Source: Magnetospirillum aberrantis SpK
Lineage (GTDB): Bacteria; Pseudomonadota; Alphaproteobacteria; Rhodospirillales; Magnetospirillaceae
Direction of reading: 5' to 3'
Assembly: GCF_011022235.1 (NCBI RefSeq)
Contig: NZ_JAAIYP010000042.1
Location: forward strand, 124,001-188,000
Length of the DNA: 64,000 nt
The notes under the pieces were generated by a model. That model did not search any database and was not told the origin of the DNA. It worked only from the letters and a program-made list of their open reading frames with translations. Of this stretch, positions 1 to 41,110 are shown piece by piece. Every line of letters begins with the position of its first letter. Position 1 is the first letter of the stretch. Position numbers and translations under genes: made by a program.

Positions 1-810
1 CAGCTTGGGGTGCGCAATATCGCCGGCTACAACCAGCGTCTGCTCGAAGCGCGCGATCGCGGCGAACAGCTGACCCGCACGGTTCAGACCGGTTTCGATC
101 CCGACACCGGTAAACCGGTCTATGAGGATCAGCTGCTGGAGCTGACGCCGCTGCCGTTCATCGTGGTCATCGTCGACGAGATGGCCGACCTGATGCTGGT
201 GGCCGGCAAGGACATCGAGGCGGCGGTGCAGCGTCTGGCCCAGATGGCCCGCGCCGCCGGCATCCATCTGATCATGGCGACCCAGCGTCCGTCGGTGGAC
301 GTCATCACCGGCACCATCAAGGCCAATTTCCCCACCCGTATCTCGTTCCAGGTCACCAGCAAGATCGACAGCCGAACCATCCTGGGCGAACAGGGCGCCG
401 AACAATTGCTGGGTCAGGGCGACATGCTGTACATGGCGGCCGGCGGCCGCATCACCCGCGTTCATGGCCCCTTCGTGTCCGACCAGGAAGTGGAGAAGGT
501 GGTCGAACACCTGCGTTACCAGGGCGAACCCAATTACGTCGAGGCGGTGACCGAGGAAGAGGAGATGATGGATTCCATGGCCGGCGGTGCCGGTGGTGGT
601 TCATCCGGCGACGACCTTTACGACCAGGCGGTGGCCCTGGTGGCGCGCGAGGGCAAGGCCTCGACCAGCTTCATCCAGCGCCAGCTCCAGATCGGCTACA
701 ACCGCGCGGCCCGGCTGATGGAGCGCATGGAGAACGAAGGTGTGGTCGGCAAGGCCAACCATGTGGGCAAGCGCGAGGTTCTGGTACGCCGCACCAACGA
801 GGATTATTGA
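1..810 (+). CDS. ftsK: DNA translocase FtsK, C-terminal part (5' truncated by the window edge)
   Basis: The frame is open from base 1 and stops at TGA 808-810, so only the last 269 residues are visible. FtsK is the septum-anchored hexameric motor that pumps DNA during chromosome segregation. The visible part holds the end of the RecA-like motor, with a Walker B stretch (IVVIVDE, about residues 54-60 of the visible part), and an [12 protein letters not shown] segment typical of the family. At the C-terminus a winged-helix gamma domain (from about [10 protein letters not shown] onward) normally reads KOPS sites. An acidic, glycine-rich linker joins the two. lolA follows on the same strand after 115 bp, an order I recall from other alphaproteobacteria. 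Confidence 0.96.
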
Positions 811-847: not shown

Positions 848-886
848 CGCAAACCGGTTCCGTGAGTCGGAAATTCGCGGAACCGG
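848..886. repeat. Hairpin repeat R1, inverted partner of R2
   Basis: The ftsK-lolA gap contains a 10-bp stem, ACCGGTTCCG (853-862) with CGGAACCGGT (878-887). Read on the minus strand, the 39 bases match 2677-2715 with two differences. The two copies therefore form an inverted pair about 1.8 kb apart, enclosing lolA, the candidate 6S RNA and xth. There is no T-run, so it is not an obvious terminator. It looks like a dispersed extragenic palindrome. Confidence 0.75.
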
Positions 887-1845: not shown

Positions 1846-2634
1846 GTGCGTCTTGTCACCTGGAACATCAATTCCGTCCGTCTGCGTTTCGGCCTGTTGG
1901 CCCAGGTGGTGGAACGGCTGCGGCCCGACGTGATCTGCCTTCAGGAAACCAAGGTCGTCGATGAGCTGTTTCCCGCCGACGATTGCCGCGCCTTGGGCTT
2001 TCCCCATCTCGCCTTTCACGGCATGAAGGGCTACAACGGCGTCGCCATCCTGTCCAAGCGGCCGTTGACGGCGGTAGCCAGGCCGTTGCGATGCGACAAG
2101 GCCGATTGCCGCCATCTGGTCGCCGAGGTGGACGGGATCGAGGTGCAATGCCTGTACATCCCCGCCGGCGGCGACGTGCCCGATCCGGCGGTCAACGACA
2201 AGTTCGCCCACAAGCTGGATTTCGTGCGCGAACTGACCACGCTTTACGCCACCCAATACACGGCCGACCGTCCGGTGATCCTGGCCGGCGATTTCAACAT
2301 CGCCCCCCTGGAAACCGACGTGTGGTCGCACAAGCAATTGCTGGGGGTGGTCAGCCATACCCCGGTCGAGGTCGAGCTGTTGACCAGGATGCAGGCGTCG
2401 GTGCCGTTCATCGATGCCGTGCGGCACATCATTCCGCCAGAGGAACGTTTGTTCAGCTGGTGGAGCTATCGCTCGCCCGACTGGACCAGGAACGACCGCG
2501 GCCGCCGGCTGGACCATGTGTGGGTGACGCCGACGCTGCAAGATCGCCTGAAGGGGGCCGAGGTGCTGCGCGACGCCCGCGCCTGGACCCAGCCGTCCGA
2601 CCACGTGCCGGTTCTGGTGGATATCGCCGATTGA
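1846..2634 (+). CDS. xth: Exodeoxyribonuclease III (AP endonuclease)
   Basis: This Mg2+-dependent DNA repair nuclease cuts abasic sites and removes 3' blocking groups. The exonuclease-endonuclease-phosphatase fold is plain: RLVTWNINSVRLR at the N-terminus, LQETK with the metal-binding Glu, AGDFNIAP with the catalytic Asp-Asn pair, and SDHVPV with the catalytic Asp-His near the end. From the chosen start the protein has 262 residues, normal for the family. Two in-frame GTG codons (1837 and 1846) are possible. AAGGGG at 1832-1837 sits 8 nt before 1846 and overlaps the other, so 1846 is preferred. Its only neighbour on the same strand is lolA, behind a terminator. Confidence 0.95.
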   Translation: MRLVTWNINSVRLRFGLLAQVVERLRPDVICLQETKVVDELFPADDCRALGFPHLAFHGMKGYNGVAILSKRPLTAVARPLRCDKADCRHLVAEVDGIEVQCLYIPAGGDVPDPAVNDKFAHKLDFVRELTTLYATQYTADRPVILAGDFNIAPLETDVWSHKQLLGVVSHTPVEVELLTRMQASVPFIDAVRHIIPPEERLFSWWSYRSPDWTRNDRGRRLDHVWVTPTLQDRLKGAEVLRDARAWTQPSDHVPVLVDIAD

Positions 2635-2676
2635 TGCCAAGTCCCGGTGTCGGGCTTGTCGAGATTTGATATCAGG

Positions 2677-2715
2677 CCGGTTCCGCGAATTTCCGATTCG
2701 CGGAACCGGTTTGCG
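2677..2715. repeat. Hairpin repeat R2, inverted partner of R1
   Basis: A perfect 14-bp stem CCGGTTCCGCGAAT (2677-2690) with ATTCGCGGAACCGG (2696-2709) encloses the loop TTCCG. The 39 bases match the reverse complement of 848-886 with two differences. Its last bases (TTGCG) run directly into structured repeat copy A, so two repeat families abut here just after xth. Confidence 0.8.
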
Positions 2716-2763
2716 CCCATTGCGGGCGCGGCCAAGTGGCCGGAGGGCCACGCCCGGCGAGGG
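2711..2763 (+). repeat. Structured two-hairpin repeat, copy A
   Basis: Stem 1 is GCGCCC (2713-2718), loop ATTGC, GGGCGC (2724-2729). The linker GGCCAAG (2730-2736) follows. Stem 2 is TGGCC (2737-2741), loop GGAG, GGCCA (2746-2750). The tail is CGCCCGGCGAGGG (2751-2763). Copies at 13015 and 40119 keep the linker, the GGA loop and the tail exactly but have different, still complementary, stems. This suggests selection on RNA or single-stranded DNA structure. I do not recognise the family. Confidence 0.8.
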
Positions 2764-2764
2764 A

Positions 2765-2800
2765 CAAAAAGAAATTTCCGACCAAAGGTCGGGAATTTCT
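2765..2800 (-). terminator. Terminator of the minus-strand gene at 2811-3461
   Basis: Read on the minus strand, a 14-bp stem (arms 2787-2800 and 2770-2783, one G-T pair) with a TTT loop is followed by TTTTTG. It lies 11 bp beyond the stop codon of the minus-strand gene. Confidence 0.8.
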
Positions 2801-2810
2801 GAAACGAGTA

Positions 2811-3461
2811 TCAGGCCGCCGACAGGCCGCGATGGGTTTCCAGCAACAGGTTACGCACCTGCTCGATCCGTTCCGGCGGCAAGGGCGGCTGTCCGGCCAC
2901 CGGCCGCGACAACAGGCCGTTCCACAGCCGGGTGCCCTCTTGGGTGCACAGGGTGTGGACCAGGATGCGTAAGGCCCGATGCAACAGCCGCAGCGTGCGC
3001 GGGTCGGAGTAGAAATGGTCCCAGGTCAGGTTGTTGCCGTAAACCACCAGCAACGCCTGGATGATGGCCCGGCAATCCTGGTCGATGGGGGCATGGTCGT
3101 CGGCCAGGGCGCGTTCGACGAACACGAAATAATTGACCAGATAGGGGCGGGGAAACACCGCGGTGTCGCCGGCCAACAGGCTTTCGAAGGGCCGCACCAT
3201 CAAGCGCTGGAACGGGTTGGAGCGCGCCCCCACATTGCCCTTGGGCCGGCTGTGAACGATTTGGCATCGTTCCTGCTGCACCTTGAAGGCGCCATCCAGC
3301 GACATGGTGCCGCGCCCGATCAGCGCCAGGATGCGTTCGGCGTCGGCCAGCCGCAACATGCCGTTCTTGTCGGCGTGCTCGCGCAGCAGCGCCGTCGCCA
3401 CGTCAAGGACGACGTTGGAAATGGCATGGCAGGCACGGCCGGATGAACAGGCGCTGGTCAT
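2811..3461 (-). CDS. Conserved-looking protein of unknown function
   Basis: I do not recognise this protein. From the ATG at 3461 it has 216 residues; a GTG at 3485 would add eight. It has no signal peptide or membrane segment and looks soluble and largely helical. Four cysteines occur: two near the N-terminus (ACSSGRAC) and two further in (ERCQIV, QDCRAI). The N-terminal third (about 25-60) contains a long helix with DVATALLREHADKNG. The gene is transcribed alone: an AT-rich stretch (3530-3565) lies upstream and its own terminator downstream. Base composition matches the neighbours, so it is probably a lineage-specific core gene. Confidence 0.7.
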   Translation of the reverse strand: MTSACSSGRACHAISNVVLDVATALLREHADKNGMLRLADAERILALIGRGTMSLDGAFKVQQERCQIVHSRPKGNVGARSNPFQRLMVRPFESLLAGDTAVFPRPYLVNYFVFVERALADDHAPIDQDCRAIIQALLVVYGNNLTWDHFYSDPRTLRLLHRALRILVHTLCTQEGTRLWNGLLSRPVAGQPPLPPERIEQVRNLLLETHRGLSAA

Positions 3462-10735: not shown

Positions 10736-11676
10736 TCGGTCTGGCCGGCGGTCTGGCCGGCGCGGGCCAGCTTCAAGGCCCGGGCATAGATCTCGCGGCG
10801 GGGGTGGCCGGTTTCGGCGGCGATCAGGGCGGCGGCGTCCTTGACGCTGGCCCCGGCGGCCATCTCGGCCAAAAGCCGGGTGTCCATGTCCTCGGGCGAG
10901 ACGTCGGCATCGGCGTCGGGCGGACCGACCACCACCACCACCTCGCCCTTGGGCGGTGCGTCGGCATAGCGGTTGGCCAGGGCGAACAAGGTGTCGCGCG
11001 CCACCTCTTCGTGCAGCTTGGTCAGTTCGCGGGCCACCGCCGCCGGCCGGTTGCCCAACACCGCCTCCATGTCGGCCAGCGACTCGCCCAGGCGGTTGGG
11101 TGATTCGAAGAACACCAGCGTCGCCGGCACCATTGCCAGTTCGCGCAACGCCTGACGGCGGGCATGCGCCTTGTTGGGCAGGAAGCCGGCGAACAGGAAA
11201 CGGTCGTTGGGCAAGCCCGACAATTGCAGCGCGGTCAGCGGCGCCGAGGCGCCGGGCAGGGCGGTGACCGGGATGTCTTCGGCGACACAGGCCCGCACCA
11301 GCCGATAACCGGGATCGGACACCAAAGGCGTGCCGGCGTCGGACACCAGCGCCACCACCGCCCCGTCCTTGAGCCGGGCGAGCAGTCGCGGCCGGGCCTG
11401 TTCGGCATTGTGCTCGTGATAGGGGACCAGCGGCCGGTCCAGGCCCAGCCGGGTCATCAGCTTGCCGGTGACCCGGCTGTCCTCGCACGCCACCAGATCG
11501 GCGGCGGCCAGTACCTCGACCGCGCGATAGGTGATGTCGCCCATGTTGCCGATGGGGGTGGCGACCAGATAAAGACCCGGCGCCGGTTTACTTCCCCGGC
11601 GGGGCAGTCTACCCTCGGGGCCTTCGTTTCCCCGTTCGTTGGAGGCTTCCGGTGCGTCTTGTCGCGGCCTTGCCAT
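10732..11676 (-). CDS. rsmI: 16S rRNA 2'-O-ribose C1402 methyltransferase RsmI
   Basis: This SAM-dependent tetrapyrrole-methylase-fold enzyme modifies C1402 of 16S rRNA. Diagnostic stretches are GLYLVATPIGNMGDITYRA, ACEDSRVTG, ALVSDAGTPLVSDPG, ALPGASAPLTALQLSG and the KGEVVVVV segment. From ATG 11676 the protein has 314 residues. AAGG lies nine bases upstream of it, while the next ATG upstream (11760) adds 28 poorly structured residues. Either start overlaps the 5' end of the divergent lipoprotein gene at 11652. Confidence 0.93.
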   Translation of the reverse strand: MARPRQDAPEASNERGNEGPEGRLPRRGSKPAPGLYLVATPIGNMGDITYRAVEVLAAADLVACEDSRVTGKLMTRLGLDRPLVPYHEHNAEQARPRLLARLKDGAVVALVSDAGTPLVSDPGYRLVRACVAEDIPVTALPGASAPLTALQLSGLPNDRFLFAGFLPNKAHARRQALRELAMVPATLVFFESPNRLGESLADMEAVLGNRPAAVARELTKLHEEVARDTLFALANRYADAPPKGEVVVVVGPPDADADVSPEDMDTRLLAEMAAGASVKDAAALIAAETGHPRREIYARALKLARAGQTAGQTE

Positions 11677-12977
11677 TGATCGCTGCCTTGTTGGTAAGCG
11701 GATGTCAGCAAGCAGACTTACCACCGTGGATGGCCGGAACCAAGCCGGCACCGGTGTCACAAGAGGTTCGGCCCCAGGTGGTGCCGCCGGCTCCCCTGCC
11801 CGCCGCGCCCCAGGTGCCGGTGACCGTCGAACCGGTGGCGCCGGCTTTCGGCGGCGGCGCCATGTCGGCCTATGGCACCCGTCTGGCCGACAAGGACGAG
11901 GTGCGGGCCGCGTTGCTGGTGCCGCTGTCGGGGCCGCAGGCCGGGTTGGGCCAGGCCATGTCCAACGCCGCGCAGCTGGCGTTGTTCGAGGTGGCCGACG
12001 AACGCTTCAACCTGATTCCGTTGGACACCAAGGGCACCGCCGAAGGCGCCGCCGCCGCCGCCCAGCAGGCGGTGGCCCAGGGCGCCGACATCGTGCTCGG
12101 TCCGCTGTTCTCGCCCGAGGTCAAGGCGGTGGCGCCGCTGGCGCGCGAACATGGCCTGCCGGTGCTGGCCTTCACCACCGACCGCACCGTTCTCGGCGAC
12201 GGCGTCTATACTTTGGGCTTCCTGCCGGGATCACAGGTCAACCGCGTGATCGGCTATGCCCGAGCTCAGGGCAAGGAACGCTTCGCCCTGTTGGCGCGTT
12301 CCGACGATTACGGCCGTGCCGTCGCCGACGCCTTCCGCGCCGCCGTGCCGGCCCAGGGCGGCCGGGTGGTCAAGGTGGAATATTACGACCCTCATGCCGC
12401 CGATCTGACCAGCGCGGTGCGGCGCCTCACCGATGCCGACCAGCGCGGCCGGGGCAAGGGCAACGAAACCAACCAGGCCACCGGCCCGGTGCCGTTCGAC
12501 GCGGTGCTGATTCCCGACGACGGTTCGCGGCTGCGGCAACTGGCGTCGCTGGTCACCTATTTCGACGCCGACCCGGCCAAGGTGGCGTTCCTGGGCACCT
12601 TGCTGTGGGACGACCCGCGCCTGTCCAACGAACCGTCGCTGCAAGGCGGCGTCTATCCGGCGGCGCCGGCCGCCGCGCACCAGGATTTCGAGGCGCGCTA
12701 TGGCCGGGCCTTTGGCGCCCTGCCCGGCCGCGTCGGCGGCATCGCCTCGATCGCCTATGACGCCACGGCGCTGGCGGCCATCCTGGCGCGCCAGGCCATG
12801 GGCGACTATTCCCCGCAATCGCTGACCAATCCGGTGGGCTTCGCCGGCGTTGACGGGGTGTTCCGGCTGTCGCCCGACGGCACCTCGGAACGGGCCTTGG
12901 CGGTGCGTCAGATCACCGCCTCGGGCCCGCGCGAGATCAGCCCGGCCCCTAATTCCTTCGTGACGCCGGGGATGTAA
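11652..12977 (+). CDS. LpoA-like penicillin-binding-protein activator lipoprotein
   Basis: This 441-residue lipoprotein starts with a GTG at 11652, six bases after GGAGG, and has the lipobox LVSGC (Cys18). A proline-rich stretch (about 25-65) leads to a periplasmic-binding-protein type I fold, like the C-terminal domain of LpoA. Visible blocks are ALLVPLSGPQAGLGQAM, GADIVLGPLFSPEVKAVAPLA, PVLAFTTD and KVAFLGTLLW. LpoA activates peptidoglycan synthase PBP1a from the outer membrane. The N-terminal TPR domain of E. coli LpoA is missing, as is usual in alphaproteobacteria. Its first 25 bases overlap the divergent rsmI. Confidence 0.85.
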   Translation: MRLVAALPLIAALLVSGCQQADLPPWMAGTKPAPVSQEVRPQVVPPAPLPAAPQVPVTVEPVAPAFGGGAMSAYGTRLADKDEVRAALLVPLSGPQAGLGQAMSNAAQLALFEVADERFNLIPLDTKGTAEGAAAAAQQAVAQGADIVLGPLFSPEVKAVAPLAREHGLPVLAFTTDRTVLGDGVYTLGFLPGSQVNRVIGYARAQGKERFALLARSDDYGRAVADAFRAAVPAQGGRVVKVEYYDPHAADLTSAVRRLTDADQRGRGKGNETNQATGPVPFDAVLIPDDGSRLRQLASLVTYFDADPAKVAFLGTLLWDDPRLSNEPSLQGGVYPAAPAAAHQDFEARYGRAFGALPGRVGGIASIAYDATALAAILARQAMGDYSPQSLTNPVGFAGVDGVFRLSPDGTSERALAVRQITASGPREISPAPNSFVTPGM

Positions 12978-13014: not shown

Positions 13015-13066
13015 TTGCCGCCATTGCGGCGGTGGCCAAGCGGCTGGAAGCCGCGCCCGGCGAGGG
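13015..13066 (+). repeat. Structured two-hairpin repeat, copy B
   Basis: Stem 1 is GCCGCC (13017-13022), loop ATTGC, GGCGGT (13028-13033, one G-T pair). GGCCAAG follows at 13034-13040. Stem 2 is CGGCT (13041-13045), loop GGA, AGCCG (13049-13053). The tail CGCCCGGCGAGGG occupies 13054-13066. Linker, loop and tail equal those of copies A and C while the stems differ. A further 9-bp hairpin (13073-13099) separates it from the convergent hemW stop. Confidence 0.8.
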
Positions 13067-13113
13067 CGAGTACAGCGGTCAGTTTTATATTGACCGCTGG
13101 TACAAAGGGACCT

Positions 13114-30615: not shown

Positions 30616-30721
30616 GACAGGCCTTTCAGGCGCCGGGCGCGGGCCATCCGGCCCGCTTGGCTCGCGCTCGCATCAGCTCGCGGGCCCTCAACGGGCCAGT
30701 CCCTCGCTCCGCTCACTCCAG
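30616..30721 (-). other. Hairpin-rich gap between cobH and cobL
   Basis: The gap holds a perfect 7-bp hairpin GCGGGCC (30639-30645), loop ATCC, GGCCCGC (30650-30656) and a second GGCCC/GGGCC stem near 30680-30695. No T-run follows on the minus strand. It may tune cobL-cobI-cobJ-cobM expression relative to the upstream genes. No B12 riboswitch box is visible. Confidence 0.45.
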
Positions 30722-32248
30722 TCATTCCAATCCCCCCGCCAGGGCGTTGACCGCCGCGGCCGCCATGGCCGAACCACCGCGCCGGCCGCGCAGGGCGATG
30801 AACGGCAAACCCGACTGGATCAGCGCTTCCTTGCTTTCGGCGGCGCCGACGAAACCGACGGCGAAGCCCAGCACCAGGGCCGGGCGCGGCGCCCCCTCCT
30901 CCATCAGTTCCAGCAGATGGAACAGCGCGGTCGGGGCGTTGCCGATGGCCACCACCGCCCCTTCCAGGTGCGGGCGCCACAATTCCACCGCCATGGCCGA
31001 ACGGGTGGTGCCCAGGCTTTTCGCCGCCTCGGCCACGCTGGGATCGTTCAATGTACAGATCACCCGGTTGGCGCGCGGCAGCTTGCGGCCGATGATGCCG
31101 TGCGCGACCATTTCGGCATCGACCAGAATCGGCGCGCCATCGGCCAGCGCCTTGATCCCGGCTTCGGCGGCGCCGTCGCTCCAGGACAGGTCGTCAACCA
31201 CGTCGGTCATGCCGCAGGCGTGGGTGATCCGCACCACCACGTCACGCAGCGCCTCGGGCAGGGTTTCCAGCTCCACCTCGTCGCGGATGGTGCTGAAGGA
31301 CTGGGCGTAGATGGCCGCCGGGTCCTTGACCCAATCGTGGATGTCCACCCGGTCGGGACCGGTCACCCCCAGGATCCAGCCTTCCTCGGTTTCCACGATT
31401 TCACGCTCCTCGACGCTCAGGGTCGGGTCGCCGGCGAACAGCGCACCCAGCCGGCCGTCGTCGTCAAGCCGGGCGTAATGGCGGGCCAGCGCGGTCACCT
31501 GGGCCTTGTCCTTGATCTCGCCCGCAGTCGCGGCCACCGGCAACAGGCCGGGATAAACCTCGGCCAGGACGACGCGCCAGTCGGAACTTTTCGACAGGGT
31601 CTTGAGTCCGGTCTCGAACGGCCATACCCGCGTCACCTCGGCCAGCCAGGGATGGCGGCGCAACGCCTCGAGGCGCGGCAGGCCGGTCAGGGTCTGGCTG
31701 CCGACGCTGCCGGCATAGGCGATCTGCCATACCGGTTTGGTGTTGCTGGCGCGCTGTTCGGTCAGCCGCCGTTCGGCAAGGCCGGCGGTGTCGGCCTTGG
31801 TGGCGGAAAGATGCGCGGTCTCAAGCGCTGCCGGCCGCCCCCAGAACGGCGCGGCGCGGCCCGATACCTGACGGTTCAACAGGTCGGCCACGGCGAAACG
31901 GTTGTTGGCGTTGTCGGCGCCGTCTTTTATTTCGGAGGCGATCCGACGCCACACGCCGCGCCAGTCCTTGGCGCCAAGCCGCGAGGCGAAACCGGCGGGA
32001 AAGCCGAAAGTGAAGTCGAACCCGCACAGCACCGTCAGGCCGCGCGCCGCCAGGTCGCTCAACAGGTCGGCCAATTGCGTCTCGGCCTCGGCCCGTGTCG
32101 GCGGGTTGGCGGTGGCGCGTTCCACCAACCCGCCGGGACCGCGCTCCACACAGGTCCACCAGATGCTGTCGCGACCGTGCTTGGGGCGCGCCTCGGCGCT
32201 CCAGTCCACCATCACATAGGCGTCGAAAACCGGCCCGGCGGTCAGCAT
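30722..32248 (-). CDS. cobH: Fusion of an unknown N-terminal domain with precorrin-8X methylmutase (CobH)
   Basis: CobH/CbiC moves the C11 methyl group to C12, giving hydrogenobyrinic or cobyrinic acid. Residues about 300-508 are CobH: IYAQSFSTIRDEVEL, VVRITHACGMTDVVDDL, ILVDAEMVAHGI, GNAPTALFHLLELM and LGFAVGFVGAAESKEAL. The first 300 residues are not part of any CobH I know. They have a DAYVMVDWSAEARPK start, CGFDFTFGFPAGFA around residue 85, and later VWPFETGLKTL. The paired acidic strands recall an RNase-H-like (DUF429-type) fold, but this is only a resemblance. The gene is 6 bp downstream of cbiX. Confidence 0.88.
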   Translation of the reverse strand: MLTAGPVFDAYVMVDWSAEARPKHGRDSIWWTCVERGPGGLVERATANPPTRAEAETQLADLLSDLAARGLTVLCGFDFTFGFPAGFASRLGAKDWRGVWRRIASEIKDGADNANNRFAVADLLNRQVSGRAAPFWGRPAALETAHLSATKADTAGLAERRLTEQRASNTKPVWQIAYAGSVGSQTLTGLPRLEALRRHPWLAEVTRVWPFETGLKTLSKSSDWRVVLAEVYPGLLPVAATAGEIKDKAQVTALARHYARLDDDGRLGALFAGDPTLSVEEREIVETEEGWILGVTGPDRVDIHDWVKDPAAIYAQSFSTIRDEVELETLPEALRDVVVRITHACGMTDVVDDLSWSDGAAEAGIKALADGAPILVDAEMVAHGIIGRKLPRANRVICTLNDPSVAEAAKSLGTTRSAMAVELWRPHLEGAVVAIGNAPTALFHLLELMEEGAPRPALVLGFAVGFVGAAESKEALIQSGLPFIALRGRRGGSAMAAAAVNALAGGLE

Positions 32249-38976: not shown

Positions 38977-40083
38977 ATGCGTATGTTCGCGGTGGTGATA
39001 ACCGCTCTCATGATGCTTGCCGCAACCGGCGCCTCGGCGCAAGGGCCACGCGCCCTGTCCGAATGGATGTTGTCGGGAAACGGCTCGGCGGTGGCGGTGG
39101 GACATGTGGGCGCCGACGCCGTGGCGGTGGCGGTGAAAGGTCCCAAGGGACCCAGGCTGGTGCAGCTCGATTCCCGTCTGCGACCGGTGGACGACTTCAC
39201 CCTGCCCGGTTCCGATTCGTGGGCGCGGGCCTTGGCGACGCCGCCCGGCGCGGTGGCCCTGGTGGCCGGTCCGGCCGAGCCGGCGGGGTTCGAGCGCGGC
39301 ATCGCCGTGTGGCGGTGGCAGGTGGGACCCGATGGCCGCCTGATGCAGGATTGGCTGCGCCGCTTTCGCCGCACCGCGCTTGACGACGGCTGGGGGGCGG
39401 TGGCGCTTGACGACGGCGGGCTGGTGGTGGCCGGCCGCACCGGCCGCGAGGGCGCATGGATCCTGCGGCTGGACGCGGCGGGCGATCCGGCATGGCGGCG
39501 GCTGGCGCCGCCGGTGGCCGCCGATGGCGTGTTCGAAGCCCGTGCCGTGGGGGTGGCCGCCGACGGCGACGTTCTGGTGGCGGCCTATGGCGCGGTTTCG
39601 CCGCTGGAGCCGGGGGGGGTGTGGGTGCTGCGCTTCGACGGCGCCGGCAATGACCGTTCGCAACTGGTGATCGACGAAGCCGAGGACGAGCATCCCGAAA
39701 CCCTGGCCGCTTTCGCCGATGGCGGCATGGTGGTGGCCGGCTGGTCGCTGGCGGTGGCCGAGGGGGTGCGTGCGCCCATGGCCGAGCGCCAAGCCTGGCT
39801 GGTGCGTATCGGCGCCGATGGCCGCATCGCCTGGGACCGGCGCTGGCCGGGCGGTGTCGGGGCGGTTACCGCGGTGGCGGCGCTGGAGGACGGCGGCGTC
39901 CTGGTGGCCGGTCAGGTGGCGGGGGGCGCCGTTCTGACCCGTCTTGGTTCCGATGGCGGAACGGTTTGGGAATGGCGCCGCCAGGGGGCCGTGCTCAACG
40001 GCCTTGCCCTGTTGCCCGACGGCCGGGCCGTGGCGGCGGGCGAACGGCGCGGCCGGCCGTGGGGCGTGCGTTTCGAGTATTAG
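38977..40083 (+). CDS. Exported protein with beta-propeller-like repeats, unknown function
   Basis: The 368-residue product starts with a signal peptide (MRMFAVVITALMMLAATGASA, cleavage near residue 21); GAGGGG precedes the ATG. The mature protein repeats a unit of about 50 residues of the form D-G-G-x-V-V-A-G ... W-x-x-R-(L/I)-x-x-x-G: ALDDGGLVVAGR, FADGGMVVAGW, LEDGGVLVAGQ, LLPDGRAVAAGE. This resembles delta-60 or related beta-propeller repeats, suggesting a periplasmic propeller. No catalytic motif is visible. The long open frame upstream to 37588 is antisense to cobO and was ignored. Confidence 0.75.
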   Translation: MRMFAVVITALMMLAATGASAQGPRALSEWMLSGNGSAVAVGHVGADAVAVAVKGPKGPRLVQLDSRLRPVDDFTLPGSDSWARALATPPGAVALVAGPAEPAGFERGIAVWRWQVGPDGRLMQDWLRRFRRTALDDGWGAVALDDGGLVVAGRTGREGAWILRLDAAGDPAWRRLAPPVAADGVFEARAVGVAADGDVLVAAYGAVSPLEPGGVWVLRFDGAGNDRSQLVIDEAEDEHPETLAAFADGGMVVAGWSLAVAEGVRAPMAERQAWLVRIGADGRIAWDRRWPGGVGAVTAVAALEDGGVLVAGQVAGGAVLTRLGSDGGTVWEWRRQGAVLNGLALLPDGRAVAAGERRGRPWGVRFEY

Positions 40084-40085
40084 GG

Positions 40086-40113
40086 TGCCGAGCGTTGAAT
40101 CCGACGCTCGGCA
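40086..40113. other. 10-bp hairpin directly after the propeller gene
   Basis: TGCCGAGCGT (40086-40095) and ACGCTCGGCA (40104-40113) form a perfect stem 2 bp after the stop codon. There is no T-run. It stands immediately before structured repeat copy C. Confidence 0.75.
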
Positions 40114-40118
40114 TGACC

Positions 40119-40170
40119 TGCGGCCGTTGAGGCCGCGGCCAAGCGTGCGGAGGCACGCGCCCGGCGAGGG
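40119..40170 (+). repeat. Structured two-hairpin repeat, copy C
   Basis: Stem 1 is GCGGCC (40120-40125), loop GTTGA, GGCCGC (40131-40136). GGCCAAG follows at 40137-40143. Stem 2 is CGTGC (40144-40148), loop GGAG, GCACG (40153-40157). The tail CGCCCGGCGAGGG is at 40158-40170. The stems differ from copies A and B at most positions while pairing is kept. The element lies between two other strong hairpins in a gap between convergent genes. Confidence 0.82.
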
Positions 40171-40184
40171 CTGAATGTAAAATG

Positions 40185-40218
40185 GACCATCGGGCGTCAG
40201 GTTTGACGTCCGATGGTC
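40185..40218 (-). terminator. Terminator-like palindrome after gluQ
   Basis: On the minus strand 15-nt arms (40204-40218 and 40185-40199, one mismatch) form a hairpin with a 4-nt loop that overlaps the last base of the gluQ stop codon and is followed by CATTTTACATT. Confidence 0.65.
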
Positions 40219-41060
40219 TAAAAGCCGGCCATGGCGCGCACCTCGGCGGCGCTGTGGCCCGCCTCGCGCAACGCCTGAAGGGTCAGGCTGCGGTCGCGTT
40301 TGGCGAAGCGTTTGCCGCTGTCGTCGGTCAACAGCCGGTGATGGTGGTAGTCGGGCGTCGGCAGTTCCAGCAACGCCTGCAACAGCCGATGGACGTGGCT
40401 GGCGGCGAACAGGTCCACGCCCCGTGTGACCAGGGTCACATCCTGAAGGGCGTCGTCCACCGTCACCGCCAGGTGGTAGCTGGTGGGCGTGTCCTTGCGG
40501 GCCAGCACCACGTCGCCGAAGATTTCCGGCGCCGCCACCTGCGGACCGGCGGCATGGTCCAGCCAGCGCAGGGGACCCGCCTGTCTTATGGCCTGGGTCA
40601 TGTCGAGCCTGAGGGCGTGGGGTTCGCCGGCGGCCATGCGGTCGGCCCGTTCGGCCGGGTCCAGGCGGCGGCACAGGCCGGGATAAAGCACGCCGTCGGG
40701 TCCGTGCGGGGCATGGCCCGACCGCGCCACCTCGTCGGCGATGTCCTTGCGGGTGCAGAAACAGGGATAGAGCAGGTTCCGGGCCGCGAGCCGGGCCAGG
40801 GCCGCGCGGTAATCGTCGAAATGTTCGGACTGGCGGCGTACCGGCCGTTCCCACTCCAGCCTCAGCCATCCCAGGTCCTCTTCGATGCCGGCGACGAATT
40901 CGTCGCGGCAGCGGCCGGAGTCGATGTCCTCGATCCGCAGCAGGAAACGCCCCGCCTTTCCCGCCTGGGCGGCGGCGAACAGGGCGGAATGGGCGTGGCC
41001 CAGATGCAGCCGCCCGGTGGGGCTGGGCGCGAAGCGGGTGACGAAGGGGGGTTGGTCCAT
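40218..41060 (-). CDS. gluQ: Glutamyl-Q tRNA(Asp) synthetase
   Basis: GluQ/YadB charges glutamate onto queuosine 34 of tRNA(Asp). It is a truncated GluRS lacking the anticodon-binding domain; the 280-residue length fits. The class I signature is RFAPSPTGRLHLGHAHSAL, and the KMSKS-like loop is GKRFAKRDRSL. A zinc site is suggested by LYPCFCTR and YPGLCRR. ATG 41060 (MDQPPFV) is chosen; ATG 41072 would add four residues. It stands alone on the minus strand, divergent from the esterase. Confidence 0.95.
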   Translation of the reverse strand: MDQPPFVTRFAPSPTGRLHLGHAHSALFAAAQAGKAGRFLLRIEDIDSGRCRDEFVAGIEEDLGWLRLEWERPVRRQSEHFDDYRAALARLAARNLLYPCFCTRKDIADEVARSGHAPHGPDGVLYPGLCRRLDPAERADRMAAGEPHALRLDMTQAIRQAGPLRWLDHAAGPQVAAPEIFGDVVLARKDTPTSYHLAVTVDDALQDVTLVTRGVDLFAASHVHRLLQALLELPTPDYHHHRLLTDDSGKRFAKRDRSLTLQALREAGHSAAEVRAMAGF

Positions 41061-41110
41061 GGCCGTTACCATACCATAATCACTCTATCGACCCCAGCCG
41101 GAGACCTACC

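Follow-up and report, generated by a model that had tools for sequence, protein, structure and literature searches.

A probable MITE-like mosaic repeat with a structured two-hairpin core in Magnetospirillum aberrantis SpK and related genomes

Three copies of a composite repeat

The stretch of 64,000 nucleotides from Magnetospirillum aberrantis SpK that was analysed here, and is termed the window, harbors three copies (A, B and C) of an intergenic repeat, whose parts and neighbouring stop codons are collected in Table 1. Each copy is constructed around a core with the plan that a previous sequence-only reading had described for it, namely a first stem closed by the loop RTTGM, the linker GGCCAAG, a second stem closed by GGA or GGAG, and the tail CGCCCGGCGAGGG. 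All three copies are present at the sites given there, with starts that had been set 1-2 nt too early, and the stems read as described apart from the length of stem 2, which amounts to 6 bp through one invariant G-C pair added to the former five. It also proved right that the unpaired parts are constant across the three copies while the stems are altered in matched pairs, and that another hairpin follows, which was identified as a right palindrome located 3' of the core in copies A, B and C. A hairpin or its remnant, missed in that reading, lies 5' of every core in the window as well, and the composites measure 125-136 bp. Letters resembling a target duplication bound copies A and C, and the corresponding pair at copy B is mismatched.

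The model used for the searches, R1, was built from 12 host copies that include the three window copies, which it scored at 71-78 bits, and the next match in the window reached 23.8 bits with the filters off. A fixed-length linker-loop-tail pattern with at most 3 mismatches fits copies A and C, in comparison with a mean of 0.00 in 100 shuffles, and is one that copy B cannot fit, its loop 2 being one base shorter. Two weak adjacent model matches at 30627-30681 and 30733-30772 on the - strand (E 0.006 and 0.03) are possibly worn copies or chance.

Table 1. Positions of the repeat and its boundaries in the window
Feature	Position	Strand	Remark
Solo worn left palindrome	848-886	-	core absent
Copy A, left TCA, putative target-site duplication	2672-2674	.	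triplet identical to 2811-2813
Copy A, left palindrome CCGGTTCCGCGAA...	2677-2709	+	solo copies of the left palindrome occur elsewhere
Copy A, core	2713-2763	+	model R1, 78.4 bits
Copy A, stem 1	2713-2718/2724-2729	+	
Copy A, linker	2730-2736	+	
Copy A, stem 2	2736-2741/2746-2751	+	loop GGAG
Copy A, tail	2751-2763	+	
Copy A, right palindrome	2770-2800	+	
Copy A, right TCA	2811-2813	.	stop codon (TGA, - strand) of gene 2811-3461
Copy B, left TAA	12975-12977	+	stop codon of gene 11652-12977
Copy B, core	13017-13066	+	71.4 bits
Copy B, right palindrome	13071-13102	+	
Copy B, right counterpart of TAA	13103-13105		reads CAA (mismatch)
Copy C, left TA and first base of element	40081-40083	+	TAG stop codon of upstream gene
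Copy C, left palindrome	40085-40114	+	
Copy C, core	40120-40170	+	75.7 bits
Copy C, right palindrome	40183-40220	+	right TA included (40219-40220)
Copy C, last base of element and TA	40218-40220	-	stop codon of convergent tRNA-synthetase-like gene 40218-41072

Structure and covariation of the core

The compensatory stem changes that had been proposed from the three copies lie well above shuffled expectation in the larger sets. Pairing holds in 98.5% of the cells across the host copies, 12 in number with 11 distinct sequences, and two-sided changes number 18 versus 5.5 in shuffles. Among 123 model matches (103 distinct sequences), 96.0% of the cells are paired, 240 two-sided changes were counted versus 73.8 in shuffles, 11 of the 12 pairs carry such a change (shuffled mean 7.4), and pairing falls to 30-56% once the partner is shifted by 1-3 columns, all of these figures being biased towards structure since the matches were fitted to the model and are mutually related. 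Across 113 cores, 35 kinds of stem 2 were counted; the linker and tail columns are 95-100% constant, a constancy that is overstated because both served as bait.

A loosened pattern, applied to the loci already collected, found GGCCAAG...CGCCCGG in 223 of 231 and GGCCAAG...CGCTTGG in 6. The altered TT of the latter variants can pair with the AA of the linker, which hints that the linker GCC may pair with the tail GGC, as it does in the predicted fold of the lone core. This lone 51-nt core has only a modest folding advantage over shuffles in copies A and C (z -2.1, equalled by 8 and 7 of 200 shuffles), while the whole composites, folded as RNA of the + strand, give z values of -6.7, -4.0 and -8.9. 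The - strand of copy A folds too (z -5.8), as do the composites when treated as DNA (z -7.1 and -10.5).

Composite organisation and outer ends

The element is arranged in the order of left palindrome, 2-4 nt, core (single or tandem), A-rich linker and right palindrome, and the largest cluster seen, in Tistrella (L325), holds six tandem core units. An inverted-repeat score of at least 8 was obtained on the left in 119 of 177 copies, on the right in 103, on both sides in 82 and on neither in 37, compared with 115 and 170 of 600 random window stretches of equal lengths. In Tistrella, the left hairpins vary between loci and the outer ends are indistinct.

Two classes of outer ends were distinguished. 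Class 1, to which copy C belongs, has GAGC...GCTC-like ends next to TA, and the TA was built into the search pattern, so that the TA flanks are descriptive and constitute no test of duplication. Class 2 has TACC...GGTA ends or near variants and includes copy A, whose left end bases are worn. Identical outside triplets, all of the form TNA, flank 22 of the 36 class 2 copies with both ends found, as against a mean of 5.6 and a maximum of 13 in 2000 permutations of the partners, for an end pattern that was written after inspection of the copies and with 9 of the 22 agreeing pairs drawn from one genome bin. Several of the 14 non-matching pairs look wrongly assigned. As is expected of a MITE, the repeat is short, multi-copy and strong in secondary structure, and in the TNA class it bears a target-site duplication, judged from the excess of matching triplets.

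Core-less derivatives retain the outer ends. In three loci (L275, L279 and L281) the core or stem 2 is missing and the outer ends are kept beside matching TGA or TAA triplets; a deletion between copies of AATTTCCGA, which is common to both palindromes, would explain L275 and L279.

Sub-families and variants

Several related forms were encountered in the course of the searches. One sub-family, represented by L282 (G000:C38:272400-273100) and by L248 in G010, consists of a stem with the loop GTTGA, GAGCCAAG, a stem with a GGAN loop and CGCCCGGCG; at L282 it forms a tandem array with a period of about 110, and in G010 a unit of it fills the gap orthologous to copy A. A long form at L283 (G000:C46:14000-14500) contains extra hairpins between the linker GGCC and stem 2, and perhaps represents an older or an inserted core. 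A third sub-family (L035-L038 and L003, as well as L227, L236 and L243 in G071) has a left palindrome resembling ACCAAGTCTCGATGAG and two more hairpins before a core-like part. At L098 the core adjoins a CGTC-like sequence, and L104 contains doubled hairpin-core units.

Distribution and turnover

The host genome yielded 28 model matches at E ≤ 0.1, the lower of which include sub-families, and 15 matches to the exact linker-to-tail pattern, while the control pattern gave none. A covariance-model search of relatives, which the sequence-only reading had called for, found matches in 35 of 61 genomes, host included (E ≤ 0.001), comprising 13 of 13 in the genus (again with the host), 20 of 24 in the rest of the family and 2 of 24 in the rest of the order, with copy numbers rising to at least 97 matches per genome. 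With the threshold set to E ≤ 1e-4, sampling the class evenly gave 10 of 385 genomes, host included, and sampling the phylum gave 2 of 299, namely the host and one member of its family.

Among the matches listed, the exact pattern occurs in Magnetospirillum, Paramagnetospirillum, Telmatospirillum, Tistrella plasmids and Asticcacaulis, and it was also found in 5 contigs of a virus collection, which may be virus or host DNA. Three exact-pattern matches, in Nocardioides (L081), a Bacillota bin (L112) and Stenotrophomonas (L144), are devoid of stem 1 and were regarded as chance. A blastn search of plasmids and phages with the entire copy A element gave no match, a result that says little on the core, since Tistrella plasmid contigs hold cores.

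Of the 12 genus relatives compared at copy A, 6 allowed both flanks to be located. None of these six yielded a full core in the gap between the flanks, three of the gaps being long and occupied by another gene; the gap in G010 gave a weak match (24.5 bits) to the GTTGA-loop sub-family. No base-exact empty site was found among the genus relatives, which are 70-82% identical at the compared loci. At copy C, the two flanks did not occur together in a single collected locus of any relative. A full core of 62.9 bits lies at 572-623 (- strand) of L263 in G006, close to the gene orthologous to the right-hand neighbour of copy C and outside the gap matching that copy. Tistrella arrays keep their position from one species to another, the flanks being about 86-97% identical, and the numbers of units at orthologous loci differ (1 versus 3, 2 versus 4, 5 versus 2 and 3 versus 1).

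Gene context and stop codons

Gene contexts were assigned by a custom codon-usage gene caller. A total of 240 distinct pattern matches were collected, 197 of which have at least 4 of the 6 stem-1 pairs; with stem 1 required to hold at least 4 pairs and with arrays merged, the context set comprises 136 sites (133 intergenic). These are divided into 73 convergent, 27 co-directional sense, 29 antisense and 4 divergent sites, with 3 overlapping a gene call. The convergent share of the intergenic sites, 73 of 133, may be set against 35 of 243 background gene pairs with a gap of at least 30 (35 convergent, 146 co-directional and 62 divergent), a background taken from two genomes only, by way of the window and 20 stretches of G029. 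Without the stem-1 filter, 190 of the 240 matches gave 85 convergent, 43 sense, 41 antisense and 11 divergent placements and 10 inside a gene call. The statement that all copies are on the + strand between convergent genes holds for the three of the window, while genome-wide the repeat occupies both strands and other gene arrangements. In G029, which is a single contig, 26 copies are divided into 13 per strand, and GC skew in 20 sampled stretches gave no clear replication origin.

In the filtered and merged set, a gene runs towards the site from upstream in 100 cases and from downstream in 102. A search where a boundary was expected recovered the pattern in 54 of the former (left) and 47 of the latter (right), and a gene's stop codon falls exactly at the boundary in 32 of 54 and 25 of 47. 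At seven shifted places, 0-6 boundary patterns per shift were found on the left and 1-11 on the right, and over all shifts a stop coincided with 5 of the 14 left and 4 of the 19 right patterns. Boundaries are thus clearly in excess where they are expected. Once a boundary is present, its rate of coincidence with a stop is elevated to a lesser degree, since the boundary pattern itself holds a stop-like triplet, from which part of the coincidence follows. Without the filter, and using the nearest candidate boundary, the stop coincided in 33 of 58 on the left and 28 of 53 on the right.

A TAG stop codon stands at either boundary of copy C, that of the upstream gene at the left and that of the tRNA-synthetase-like gene, read from the opposite strand, at the right. 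The upstream gene stops at the same codon in the one relative compared. Of 12 relatives, a single one ends the downstream gene at the place seen in the host, which makes this stop an unusual one; in the remaining 11 the gene extends 1-10 codons beyond it. To the right of copy A, 3 of 6 relatives share the gene's stop codon and the other 3 stop one codon earlier. Since the stops of the relatives partly coincide and partly differ at copies A and C, both routes, a native stop taken over and a new stop made slightly upstream, seem to occur.

Interpretation and alternative explanations

We interpret the repeat as a non-autonomous, mobile, MITE-like mosaic element with a structured core, and assign to this reading a probability of roughly 0.63. 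The neutral orientation, the folding as DNA and the patchiness speak for DNA-level biology, and the constant unpaired letters beside covarying stems speak for recognition of a folded strand. A match to a known REP or MITE family, explained by inverted-repeat biology alone, had been named beforehand as the outcome that would tell against an RNA family; the repeat is indeed MITE-like, while it matched no named family, and inverted-repeat biology alone does not account for its constant unpaired parts.

The covariation could have a mutational source, an explanation that we consider unlikely yet worth weighing. Inverted repeats can mutate by template switching, and this process, or the exchange of array units, would transfer the sequence of one arm onto its partner without the fold being selected. 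Within a given Tistrella locus entire stems differ from unit to unit, as this explanation would have it, and unit exchange could be the source of the difference. It leaves unexplained, however, the near-invariant linker, loops and tail beside so many kinds of stem 2, even when the bait effect is borne in mind, and a lone-unit Tistrella orthologue displays a paired C-G to T-A change (L317 and L331 versus L225), although template switching could make that change too.

Somewhat less probable is a structured RNA, according to which the core is transcribed and works either as a small RNA or as a 3'-UTR element specific to one strand. Covarying stems, constant loops and the well-folded + strands of the composites are what such an RNA would display, but the co-directional sites are almost evenly split between sense and antisense with or without the filter, the - strand of copy A and the DNA forms of the composites fold as well, a promoter-like site was not found in 2500-3000, the full core is absent from the copy A gap in six relatives, and the spread is patchy. 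The discrete RNA family considered in the sequence-only reading is not supported, and what was observed is a dispersed and patchy composite repeat with transposon-like ends, which lies near gene 3' ends with no strand preference.

It is rather improbable that the repeat is a domesticated bidirectional terminator or a stabiliser of mRNA 3' ends, retained because of what it does to transcripts. The convergent bias and the strong hairpins close to 3' ends are in line with this role, as is one terminator-like site at 2778-2792 on the - strand (0.4 in shuffles), but neither the constant loop and tail letters nor the matching flanking triplets would be needed for it, and the location of copy A is not conserved.

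That the repeat belongs to the REP type, with a RAYT (a Y1 tyrosine transposase) to serve it, appears very unlikely. The repeat does have a hairpin with a constant tag and tandem as well as interspersed copies, lies near gene 3' ends as REPs do, and Y1_Tnp is present in some copy-rich relatives (G013 with 89 matches and G021 with 78). Against this, PF01797 was not found in the host or in G009, G026, G030 and G016, which carry 62, 92, at least 97 and 59 matches, and 30 Y1_Tnp loci carry just 3 weak model matches (E 0.05-0.3), so that a RAYT gene flanked by the repeats, the mark of that family, was not seen. Moreover, target duplications are not expected of Y1 enzymes. As for a binding decoy of CsrA/RsmA, which the GGA in the loop of stem 2 had brought to mind, the chance is negligible, given that CsrA (PF02599) was found in none of the 61 genomes by a search that was positive in 3 of 14 control genomes.

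Candidate mobilisers

For the mobile element favoured here, the best clue to a class 1 mobiliser is an IS630-family element (DDE_3 and NF033545) in G007 (L252, about 420-1491, - strand), whose transposase is divided between two reading frames and whose GAGC...GCTC ends have TA on both sides. It sits at the stop codon of an endonuclease gene that is orthologous to the left-hand neighbour of copy A, and the ends that it has in common with class 1 extend over only about 4-6 bases (GAGC/GCTC). An IS630-type transposase (DDE_3, PF13358) had no match in the host.

For class 2, the IS5-type groups that make 3-bp TNA duplications are possible candidates, and no insertion sequence with TACC/GGTA ends was found. 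The IS5 type (PF01609) has two matches in the host, one of them a fragment that lies some 0.7 kb away from a solo left palindrome and whose proximity was judged a coincidence. A comparison of 117 of the 205 neighbour proteins with Pfam gave 140 families, none of which occurs in more than 4 proteins, and hence no shared partner gene beside the elements; among the 25 neighbour families listed there is no transposase.

Proposed mechanism

Under the MITE-like reading, transposases supplied in trans would act on the outer ends and insert the element at TA or TNA. On insertion, a native stop codon (TGA or TAA) would be copied whole, or the duplicated TA, joined to the terminal base of the element at either end (TA+G or C+TA), would make a new stop a few codons early. 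Because either route would leave the gene a working end, the insertions would survive and gather between convergent genes. In the least certain part of this scheme, the core would fold as single-stranded DNA or RNA, and a factor would recognise its unpaired letters RTTGM, GGCCAAG, GGAN and CGCCCGGCGAGGG; the stems, with recognition confined to unpaired letters, might then drift freely as long as pairing was kept. The core would also multiply in tandem.

A bolder extension, put forward tentatively, holds that the core is an independent folded module that a putative alphaproteobacterial enzyme might read as single-stranded DNA or RNA. Such a module would amplify itself and might have been moved between frames, that is, the TA class, the TNA class and end-poor tandem arrays, with its letters read in the unpaired parts and its stems needing pairing only.

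With many copies in tens of genomes, the repeat constitutes a natural experiment in which the contacts of the partner would be readable from the constant letters and covarying stems. The repeat also suggests how such elements may become established where genes are densely packed, namely by entering or rebuilding stop codons on both sides. It also follows as a caution that dispersed repeats of such a type can mimic new RNA families in covariation screens.

Comparison with known families

The sequence-only reading knew of no named RNA family with such a pattern, in agreement with Rfam 15, which gave no window match at the gathering score. Relaxed matches at copy A and four host loci were all far below gathering (for example BjrC80 with 21 bits versus a gathering score of 80) and were taken as chance. 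A description of the repeat was not found among the open-licence papers listed.

Among DNA repeats, the CGTC-tagged REPs of alphaproteobacteria are, in the cited portions of their description, hairpins with a CGTC tag and one stem of 8-9 bp, for which the authors name no dedicated transposase (PMC3733652). The present repeat resembles them as a small repeated hairpin with an unpaired tag, but it has two hairpins with GGCCAAG and CGCCCGGCGAGGG, and a CGTC tag at the end of an 8-9 bp stem was not seen. For RUP, IS630-Spn1 has been proposed as the mover in the section consulted (PMC2229807). The TA target and the ends in common with an IS630-family element recall that case; unlike there, only about 4-6 end bases are shared here, and the host is without a DDE_3 match.

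The RIME and Sm/ABC repeats of rhizobia and the CIR of Caulobacter and Brucella are portrayed, in extracts of the two sources, as intergenic alphaproteobacterial repeats with dozens of copies, and CIR as a linker joining two inverted-repeat arms (PMC2573895, PMC2229807). Those extracts describe RIME and CIR without a two-hairpin core, a tandem core or a stop-codon boundary, a distinction drawn from the descriptions, and it is possible that the outer arms are related to the RIME or CIR palindrome. In the relevant passages on BOX of Streptococcus pneumoniae (PMC3049150), outer modules enclose a variable number of tandem boxB units with strong predicted folds, and mobilisation in trans by a resident insertion sequence is proposed. 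The composite organisation, with outer modules around a tandem inner unit, is alike in both repeats when organisation rather than sequence is compared, whereas the present repeat inhabits another phylum, has compensatory stem changes in its core and possesses two kinds of ends. Taken together, the repeat matches no family tested, and its organisation is like that of BOX, RIME and CIR.
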